Position numbers and translations under genes: made by a program
NCBI RefSeq assembly: GCF_019904235.1
Contig: NZ_CP063202.1
Span: forward strand, 2,294,001 to 2,358,000
From: Erythrobacter sp. SCSIO 43205
Lineage (GTDB): Bacteria; Pseudomonadota; Alphaproteobacteria; Sphingomonadales; Sphingomonadaceae
Length of the DNA: 64,000 nt
Direction: 5' to 3'
Part shown: positions 9,086-37,746 of the stretch, piece by piece
How positions within the stretch are numbered: the first letter of the stretch is position 1
Layout: each line of letters begins with the position of its first letter
Notes under the pieces: model-generated
Seen by the model: only the letters and a program-made list of their open reading frames with translations
Database searches by the model: none
What the model was told of the DNA's origin: nothing

Positions 9086-9163
9086 GCGCATCCCCGCGGA
9101 GGCGGGGATCTCCTTCAATCAAGCGCCATTCAGCACTAGATCCCCGCCTCCGCGGGGAAGCGC
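9086..9163. repeat. Inverted pair of GC-rich palindromes (REPIN-like)
   Basis: Two 26-base units, 9086-9111 and 9138-9163, are inverted copies of each other with a single mismatch; the core 20 bases are identical. Each unit is itself a hairpin: an 8-bp stem ATCCCCGC/GCGGGGAT with a GGAG loop. The spacer is 26 bases. It lies in the 102-base gap between guaB and the RsmB-type gene. The design, two small palindromes facing each other, matches REPIN-type elements. It could also act as a transcription attenuator below guaB. Confidence 0.85.
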
Positions 9164-23155: not shown

Positions 23156-23179
23156 TTTTGTTGTCTGCATCATCAAGCC

Positions 23180-23208
23180 GTCACCCCCGCGAAAGCGGGG
23201 GCCCCGCT
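23180..23208 (+). repeat. Left palindromic repeat of the GIY-YIG unit
   Basis: A 29-base repeat containing a hairpin with stem CCCCCGC/GCGGGGG and loop GAAA, flanked by GTCA on one side and CCCCGCT on the other. It is the inverse of the copy at 23513-23541 with three mismatches, two of them outside the stem. It occupies the place where a ribosome-binding site for the GIY-YIG gene would be expected. Confidence 0.85.
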
Positions 23209-23215
23209 ACCTAGA

Positions 23216-23509
23216 ATGTCGCAAGGTGGCTGGGTCTACATGATGAGCGACCGCTATCGAGGCGGAATTTATACGGGTGTGACCGCGGATCTCGCCGCGC
23301 GTGTAATTCAGCATAGAGAGGGCAGCGGATCGCGCTTTGTTGCCCGCTACGGATTTACCCGGTTGGTTTATTCTGAAAGACACGAAGCAATAGAAGACGC
23401 TATCGCGCGTGAGAAAGCGATTAAGAAATGGAGGCGGGCTTGGAAGATCGAATTGATCGAAAAGCTCAATCCCGATTGGATCGATCTATTCGACACGCTG
23501 AACAATTAA
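23216..23509 (+). CDS. GIY-YIG nuclease family protein
   Basis: 97 residues, essentially one GIY-YIG domain of the YhbQ/COG2827 type. The name motif is seen as WVYMMSDRYRGGIYTGVT, followed by the catalytic Arg/His region (DLAARVIQHREG), and the conserved Glu in AIEDAIAREKAIKKWRR. The catalytic residues appear intact. The family cleaves DNA, but the role of these short bacterial members is unclear. No Shine-Dalgarno sequence is evident because a GC-rich palindrome ends 7 bases before the ATG. See the surrounding repeats. Confidence 0.88.
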   Translation: MSQGGWVYMMSDRYRGGIYTGVTADLAARVIQHREGSGSRFVARYGFTRLVYSERHEAIEDAIAREKAIKKWRRAWKIELIEKLNPDWIDLFDTLNN

Positions 23510-23512
23510 AGA

Positions 23513-23541
23513 AGCGGGACCCCCGCTTGCGCGGGGGCGAC
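23513..23541 (-). repeat. Right palindromic repeat of the GIY-YIG unit
   Basis: An inverted copy of 23180-23208, with a stem CCCCCGC/GCGGGGG and a 4-base loop. It starts 3 bases after the GIY-YIG stop codon and ends 20 bases before prmA, so it may also serve as a terminator-like hairpin. Confidence 0.85.
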
Positions 23542-23561
23542 GTTTGGGGTTTGAGAACCGA

Positions 23562-36776: not shown

Positions 36777-37667
36777 ATGACCCGCCGCGCCGATCCCCGC
36801 ACCGCCCGCACTCTCGTCCCCCGCGCAGAGCTGCCCGACTTCGCCCCCGTCCCTCGTCAGAGCAATCGCCACGACGGCTGGACTGACCAGCGCCAGCAGG
36901 ACTTCATCCACGCCCTCGCCGACACCGGCTCCGTCGCGAGCGCGTGCAAGGCGGTCGATATGAGCACCAATGGCGCATACTACCTGCGCCGGCAAAAGGG
37001 GGCGGAGAGTTTCCGCGAAGCGTGGGAAAAGGCATTGGACATCGGCGTTCAGCGGTTGGAGGACGTCGCCATGGACCGCGCATTGAACGGCGTGGATGAG
37101 CCCGTCTATTCCTATGGCAAGCTGATCGGGTCACGCAAAAAGGTCAACGACCGCCTTTTAATGTTCATGCTCAGAAACCGCGCGCCCGAACGGTTTGGCA
37201 AGAACGGCAGCGACCTGAAAGGCCTCAACGCCATCGGCAAGATGGAAAAGCGCCGCTTGAAAAAGAAATGGCGCAAAAAATGGGAGAAAGAACAAGCCAC
37301 CGCCGCCGCAAAAGCGAAAGCGGCTGCCAGCAATCAAAAGTCCGTTCAAGCGATCCGCGATAGCATCGACGCCAAAATCGACCGCTTTCGCGCGCAAGTC
37401 GAACGCGAGCGCGCCCGCGAATGGGAGCAAATGTCCGAAGACACCCGCGCAGCTTGGGCGGAGTTTGAACGCCTACGCAACCGCGACTTTGACCGCTTGG
37501 CCGCCGATGAAGAATTCCGGCGGAGGCATGAGCGTGGCCCGCGCGAGCACGTGAATTGCGAACCATTCGACTGGCGAAAGAAGCCCGTGACCAAGGTGAG
37601 GAAGACGGTGCACTCGCTTAAGGATGATGGGTGGGATGAGACGGAGCCAGAAGAACCGTCATCCTGA
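36777..37667 (+). CDS. Helix-turn-helix protein resembling phage terminase small subunits
   Basis: 296 residues. Residues about 30-110 (WTDQRQQDFIHALADTGSVA, then ACKAVDMSTNGAYYLRRQKG) look like the HTH region of terminase small subunits or TerS-like regulators. The rest is very rich in Lys, Arg, Glu and Ala and likely helical. No terminase large subunit or other phage gene is near. The ATG at 36777 is chosen; an in-frame start at 36657 would overlap the divergent gene. Its stop codon (37665-37667) lies inside a palindromic repeat. Confidence 0.65.
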   Translation: MTRRADPRTARTLVPRAELPDFAPVPRQSNRHDGWTDQRQQDFIHALADTGSVASACKAVDMSTNGAYYLRRQKGAESFREAWEKALDIGVQRLEDVAMDRALNGVDEPVYSYGKLIGSRKKVNDRLLMFMLRNRAPERFGKNGSDLKGLNAIGKMEKRRLKKKWRKKWEKEQATAAAKAKAAASNQKSVQAIRDSIDAKIDRFRAQVERERAREWEQMSEDTRAAWAEFERLRNRDFDRLAADEEFRRRHERGPREHVNCEPFDWRKKPVTKVRKTVHSLKDDGWDETEPEEPSS

Positions 37668-37734
37668 ACTTGTTTCAGGATAACAGAGGTTGGCGCTTGC
37701 TGAGAGGGTTATCCCGAATCAAGTTCGGGATGAC
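37658..37734. repeat. Inverted pair of palindromes (REPIN-like), second family
   Basis: Two 27-base units, 37658-37684 and 37708-37734, are inverted copies differing at a few positions. Each is a hairpin: ATCCTGAA/TTCAGGAT in the left unit and ATCCCGAA/TTCGGGAT in the right, with 5-base loops. The spacer is 23 bases. The left unit provides the last three codons and the TGA stop of the HTH gene. The sequence is unrelated to the GC-rich pair at 9.1 kb. Confidence 0.85.
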
Positions 37735-37746
37735 GATTGAATTAAT

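Follow-up and report, generated by a model that had tools for sequence, protein, structure and literature searches.

A GIY-YIG nuclease gene between inverted CGTC-tagged palindromes: a probable REPIN/RAYT-like mobile unit in Erythrobacter and other bacteria

The type of organisation reported here is known from REPIN/RAYT systems. In these a single gene lies between inverted REPs, the type of the enzyme tracks the type of the REP, and gene-less inverted doublets of the same palindromes are found at a fixed spacing. For the GI doublets (REPINs) of SBW25 this spacing is given as 71 bp (PMC3116915), in the present system it is 53–54 bp for one REP type and 55–64 bp for another. The enzyme family and the REP superfamily are different: the enzyme is a GIY-YIG protein and not one of the HUH/Y1 type, and the palindromes carry a CGTC tag whereas those of RAYTs carry GTAG.

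CGTC REPs were described by Di Nocera et al. in 2013 (PMC3733652) as palindromes with a CGTC head, a stem of 8–9 bp, a loop of 4–5 nt and a CCA tail, among which head-to-head dimers predominate and which, like REPs in general, are mostly intergenic. The CGTC REPs of Neisseria correspond to dRS3, for which almost 700 copies have been reported in a meningococcal genome, and some of those in Rickettsia correspond to RPE-4 and RPE-6. In the words of that survey these repeats "seem lacking a dedicated transposase"; it leaves open what moves them, and its account of transposase genes flanked by CGTC repeats names none beyond a few fortuitous associations. A link between GIY-YIG proteins and REPs was not found among the papers listed by searches of open-licence PMC full texts, and the initial annotation of this DNA could point to no described system of the kind; subscription papers and preprints could hold one. 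One paper names a RayT gene and, separately, a GIY-YIG gene among clade-specific genes, and it cites a REP paper (PMC9465073).

The unit studied here lies in a 64-kb stretch of Erythrobacter DNA (the window) and consists of a small GIY-YIG gene between two palindromes (Table 1). The left 29-base palindrome (23180–23208) ends 7 bases before the ATG, the right one (23513–23541) starts 3 bases past the stop codon, and the two are identical at 26 of 29 positions when one is inverted. These distances and coordinates, and the 97-codon length of the gene, are as the initial annotation had them, and its statement that the unit contains nothing else holds. Both palindromes begin with CGTC, because one further base pairs on each side (23179 and 23542). 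A repeat search returns the pair as a 41-nt inverted repeat, 80% complementary, with arms 282 nt apart. The copies in the window have a stem of 8 with one mismatch and a loop of 4, and they differ from the published CGTC REPs in the mismatched stem pair and in their CCC tail. Scanning the window for CGTC or TGTC followed by an 8-bp stem (at most one mismatch) and a 4–5 nt loop gave five sites, four of which form two inverted pairs, the unit being one of these; 20 mononucleotide-shuffled windows gave a mean of 0.9 sites and a maximum of 3. On the strength of the shuffled windows and the flank controls described below, a chance origin of the palindrome pair was rejected.

Table 1. Position of the unit and of a gene-less palindrome pair in the window.
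Feature	Coordinates	Strand	Details
GIY-YIG nuclease gene	23216..23509	+	ATG at 23216, TAA at 23509; 97 aa; PF01541, E=1.8e-12
Left CGTC-tagged palindrome (REP)	23179..23208	+	CGTC head outwards; 8-bp stem with one mismatch; GAAA loop
Right CGTC-tagged palindrome	23513..23542	-	Inverted copy of the left palindrome; head outwards
Gene-less inverted pair, CGTC-headed (REPIN-like doublet)	37657..37735	.	Class CGTCATCCTGAACTTGTTTCAGGAT... / CTGAACTTGTTTCAG; palindromes of unit L085 are of the same class

By its domain and its conserved residues the window protein is a GIY-YIG nuclease. PF01541 is the only Pfam domain above the cut-off in its 97 residues, so that there is no second domain and no HUH/Y1 domain by this search, and NCBIfam gave no match at E≤0.1. 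In an alignment of 48 rows Y8, Y19, G21, R29, H33, L50, V51, K70, R74 and N85 are invariant and E66 is nearly so; Y8, Y19, R29, N85 and E66 are presumably the conserved catalytic residues. The AF2 model (pLDDT 92.8, pTM 0.84) was used for a Foldseek search, which is led by GIY-YIG-type folds: the UPF0213 proteins 1zg2 and 1ywl occupy the top two ranks and are followed by Slx1 structures, these with weak E-values of 0.04 and above. These two UPF0213/YhbQ-like small GIY-YIG proteins are also the only sequence matches of the window protein among solved structures, they are listed as hypothetical proteins.

The 3.38-Mb source genome contains seven PF01541 matches, one in a 648-aa frame that we take for UvrC from its length and six in small genes. 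Reading of their flanks showed that five of the six, including the window gene, carry inverted palindromes, which differ in sequence from gene to gene; the sixth (L061) belongs to another GIY-YIG group and has no flanking repeat that scored. The sequence CCCCCGCNNNNGCGGGGG occurs exactly nine times in the genome, four of these occurrences flanking small GIY-YIG genes. Elsewhere in the window, at 9089–9160, two GC-rich palindromes without CGTC heads form an inverted pair with a spacing of about 50 bp. This pair resembles CGCT-headed doublets found at three other places in the source genome (L009, L010 and L016), and these match the palindromes of a GIY-YIG unit between sucD and sucA (L060, near 6400). 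The CGCT-headed palindromes are possibly a second tag class.

A profile built from five genes of the source genome separates close homologues (group A) from other small GIY-YIG genes (group B). It found 84 small matches, 68 in group A and 16 in group B, in 79 of 80 regions fetched from 33 of the 61 genomes searched; eight of the 84 are from outside the genus, where at least 22 further small matches, among those listed, were left out of the fetched regions. The remaining region (L057) has no profile match, and its PF01541 match contains two stops. Flanking repeats were scored by comparing the 350 bp upstream of each gene with the reverse complement of the 350 bp downstream, with a threshold score of at least 16. 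An inverted repeat flanks 58 of the 68 group A genes in these related genomes. At the same threshold the figures are 2 of 16 for group B, 6 of 389 for other neighbouring genes and 4 of 1363 for random placements. The idea that every small GIY-YIG gene is flanked by REPs was therefore rejected, as those outside the subfamily are mostly without them, and one of the two repeat-flanked group B genes (L093) has the appearance of a damaged group A copy. With the last 36 nt of the frame added, 60 of the 68 group A genes reach the threshold, because some right palindromes of type-1 units overlap the stop codon or have become coding. The usual type-1 stop codon is formed by the first bases of the right palindrome; in three type-1 units (L106, L102 and L063) the stop codon has been lost, so that the reading frame runs on through the palindrome as a C-terminal extension.

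The same arrangement is found over a much wider range. In a wide set of 80 loci, 64 are flanked by repeats, against 7 of 1092 placements; the set is not random, because it was picked by likeness to the window protein as the best 80 of 142 confirmed relatives. It includes Alpha-, Beta- and Gammaproteobacteria and records labelled Chloroflexi, SAR202 and Ignavibacteria, many of them metagenome bins; the repeat is present at one of two Ignavibacteria-type loci and absent from the other. No flanking repeat reached the threshold in 10 of 68 group A genes and 16 of 80 wide-set loci, which counts against a mobile unit. The initial annotation had proposed a REP-mobilising system based on another enzyme family, to be doubted if homologues in relatives lacked the repeats. 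The proposal is supported by flanking far above the controls in both sets, with cutting and spreading of the repeats as the presumed activity of the nuclease. Its placing of the system in sphingomonads is correct as far as it goes and too narrow, given the reach of the wide set.

Of 148 units, 26 lack a flanking repeat, and among the remaining 122 there are 27 in which no core could be recognised; the statistics on cores are therefore from 95 units. Among these, 78 have a CGTC head and 11 a TGTC head (89 of 95 together), in a search that began from CGTC and allowed at most one change. The stem is 8 bp in 93 and 9 bp in two (7–9 allowed), 89 of the loops are of 4 or 5 nt (3–25 allowed), and the tail is CCA in 49 and CCC in 17. 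Judged by their sequence, the palindromes of the units fit the published CGTC REP superfamily in head, 8-bp stem, 4–5 nt loop and facing dimers, and about half of them also in the CCA tail. The difference is that the REPs of the 2013 survey are presented there as having no transposase, and here a dedicated nuclease gene lies between the repeats. A subfamily gene in N. gonorrhoeae (L292) lies amid 11 dRS3-like repeats (at most three changes) in 3.3 kb; the 2.17-Mb record that holds it is filed as a plasmid and is chromosome-sized.

Related units are found at unrelated sites, and the similarity between them in most cases ends at the palindromes or close to them. Among 39 pairs without homologous flanks (pairs below 75% identity were excluded), the similarity ends no more than 8 nt from the outer end of each palindrome, or before reaching it, in 24 cases; the other 15 have no clean end at both palindromes. 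The 39 pairs are not independent, because most are type-1 units. Three near-identical pairs, each within one genome (L076/L077, L106/L107 and L094/L095), overrun one or both ends by 26–50 nt, and the excess is possibly part of another repeat next to the units. Five units (L076, L077, L094, L095 and L068) adjoin or lie inside such a repeat, which is dispersed, either TGTCCGCTAACGACCCAATTGCGGAC-like or GGCAGCTTTCGG-like, and possibly a preferred target.

The units are also present at some sites and absent from the same sites in relatives. Between sucD and sucA a unit occurs in 3 of 30 genomes; the intergenic regions that carry it are without a leader present in the others, so this is not a simple insertion. 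The site between mdh and sucD has a unit in 4 of 30 genomes and a gene-less doublet in two others (G001 and G031). At the window site the unit is present in one genome of 30, and a relative (G019) has 27 bp between the flanking genes. The comparison of genomes with and without the unit that the initial annotation proposed thus yields sites lacking the unit, none of them a base-exact empty site for the window unit among the 30 genomes compared, in which the intergenic DNA is too diverged. In 17 of the 30 genomes the genes that flank the window site (SDR and prmA-like; L160–L189) have about 0.9 kb of other coding-like sequence between them, with a putative metallo-beta-lactamase-fold motif recognised by eye. 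In seven Sphingobium plasmid records fnrL and a response-regulator gene are separated by a unit; five records contain both genes and no unit. Two of these five have the outer halves of both palindromes fused into a single hairpin, a structure that may have been left by excision or may serve as a target. A frameshift is present in one plasmid copy of the unit, and a unit in one genome (L283) is internally deleted. No target duplication and no single clean insertion site could be defined at the sites compared.

Gene-less doublets of the same palindromes occur at fixed spacing. Type-2 REPs (CCCAGCGAAAGCTGGG) have 133 sites in 19 of 37 genomes, and in 41 of 42 pairs of neighbours separated by less than 1 kb the two sites face each other; the spacing is 53–54 bp in 32 of the 41 and 337–352 bp in six. 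For type-1 REPs, 101 sites were counted in 17 of 61 genomes, and 28 of 30 such pairs are facing, 15 of them at 55–64 bp and 10 at 359–377 bp. Head-to-head pairs thus predominate in both types, as in CGTC REPs. The facing pairs 300–400 bp apart enclose a GIY-YIG match in ten of ten cases for type 1 and in six of six for type 2 (positions matched by eye). In one genome (G001) a single type-2 gene is accompanied by 44 type-2 sites. Across the genus the number of gene-less type-2 sites is only weakly associated with possession of the type-2 gene (Mann-Whitney, one-sided, p=0.013), and presence or absence of the two gives p=0.11 in Fisher's test; the weakness of this link counts against a nuclease that spreads the doublets. 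In four genomes (G000, G019, G021 and G034) type-1 REPs with at most one mismatch are confined to the surroundings of the genes, so that spread of type 1 in trans is not seen there.

Across genomes, the repeats and the gene co-occur. A survey of 199 genomes of the phylum used a pattern for one CGTC REP class, with at least 5 copies taken as REP-rich, and a gene cut-off of E≤1e-20, by which five weaker gene matches were dropped. The subfamily gene is present in 26 of 37 REP-rich genomes and in 26 of 162 others (Fisher p=2.7e-10), and permutation within families gives an expectation of 18.4 for the 26 observed (p≤0.00005). The 11 REP-rich genomes without a gene match and the 26 REP-poor genomes with one speak against the link, possible reasons being loss, REP classes other than the one counted, or the strictness of the cut-off. 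At E≤0.001, 34 of 37 genomes of the genus have no Y1 (RAYT-type) match and three have one; RAYTs were accordingly rejected as the movers of CGTC REPs in the genus.

The strongest rival to a self-mobilising unit is that a homing-type GIY-YIG endonuclease cuts and invades REP doublets that are spread by something else. Many homing endonucleases have the GIY-YIG fold, and enzymes of the I-TevI type share with the window protein this domain and a selfish-looking spread. The gene unit resembles a doublet whose short spacer has been swapped for a gene, the mdh-sucD unit of some genomes is answered by the gene-less doublets of G001 and G031, and the fused palindrome of the two Sphingobium plasmids could be a target before insertion. 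The window unit is intergenic and flanked by palindromes, unlike the I-TevI type, which lies in an intron or intein, and its protein differs from that type also in having no second domain above the cut-off. A homing parasite would also need a second, unseen mobiliser of the REPs, and none of the RAYT type is apparent in those 34 genomes of the genus. PMC3733652 names no transposase gene flanked by CGTC repeats apart from the few fortuitous cases, and in four genomes the type-1 class was found solely around the gene. We consider this explanation unlikely.

The type of palindrome tracks the type of protein, also at unrelated sites. Similarity between proteins and similarity between palindromes are correlated across the 95 units (r=0.46; highest of 999 permutations 0.124). 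The correlation persists when pairs sharing flanking DNA are removed (r=0.395; highest of 999 permutations 0.138), and mere shared ancestry of the site was therefore rejected as its cause. In a further test the closest protein relative of a unit, taken at an unrelated site, was compared with diverged paralogues in the unit's own genome; the palindrome is nearer to that of the relative in 25 of 31 units (p=0.0009). Three pairs at unrelated sites (L107/L076, L077/L102 and L063/L102) have synonymous distances of 1.0 to 1.8 and palindrome cores that are identical or 97% alike, so the palindromes seem to be held by constraint. Random scatter of the palindromes, which the initial annotation had named as a result that would speak against it, does not agree with this covariation, with the spacing of the doublets or with the co-occurrence across genomes. 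The nuclease gene is under purifying selection, with a median dN/dS of 0.12 in 41 usable pairs of 49 at different sites.

This selection would also be expected of a host function, in which the nuclease processes REP cruciforms in repair or replication, the REPs regulate or terminate its transcript, and the repeats spread by recombination with one another. The Slx1 structures in the Foldseek list are of structure-selective nucleases, and the right REP of several type-1 units shares bases with the stop codon. A mobile element accounts better for the patchy presence of the units, the several diverged paralogues per genome and the occurrence of related units at unrelated sites, and 14 of 16 group B GIY-YIG genes have no flanking repeats; a host function is in our judgement quite improbable. 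Hardly credible is the remaining explanation, that REPs prefer to insert around such genes or that RAYTs move CGTC REPs, for which it can be said that REPs are mostly intergenic (PMC3733652) and that other genes are at times repeat-flanked (6/389), but against which stand the covariation of protein and palindrome, the GIY-YIG subfamily gene in all 16 facing REP pairs examined at 300–400 bp and the rarity of RAYT-type matches in the genus.

We therefore favour a self-mobilising unit, and think it likely that the CGTC REP, the nuclease gene and the inverted CGTC REP together form a minimal mobile element, a counterpart of RAYT/REPIN on an unrelated enzyme. Structure-selective GIY-YIG enzymes act on branched DNA. 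The nuclease would recognise the hairpin or cruciform of its own CGTC REP class and cut near the CGTC head, and this cut would drive copying or movement of the whole unit by a presumed transposition chemistry. Gene-less doublets of the same class may be mobilised by the nuclease in trans. Because the same arrangement recurs across many bacteria, this GIY-YIG subfamily is probably the long-missing engine that spreads widespread small hairpin repeats through bacterial genomes.

We know of no bacterial element in which a GIY-YIG domain is the sole transposase, and there is a fair chance that this is a new class of mobile element. A broader proposal stands, in our estimate, about evenly between right and wrong: that the 97-residue nuclease is the sole transposase of an unrecognised class of bacterial mobile DNA, and that one lineage of such enzymes, with palindrome-specific types in Proteobacteria and other phyla, has generated the CGTC REPs and sustains them, including the dRS3 of Neisseria and the RPE of Rickettsia. 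The subfamily is in any case a specific and testable candidate for the mover of CGTC REPs, and 26 of the 37 genomes with many REPs of one class contain it. If the proposal is true, a GIY-YIG nuclease can act as a transposase, repeats such as dRS3 have a candidate source, and REPIN-like replicator systems would have arisen at least twice, with unrelated enzymes.
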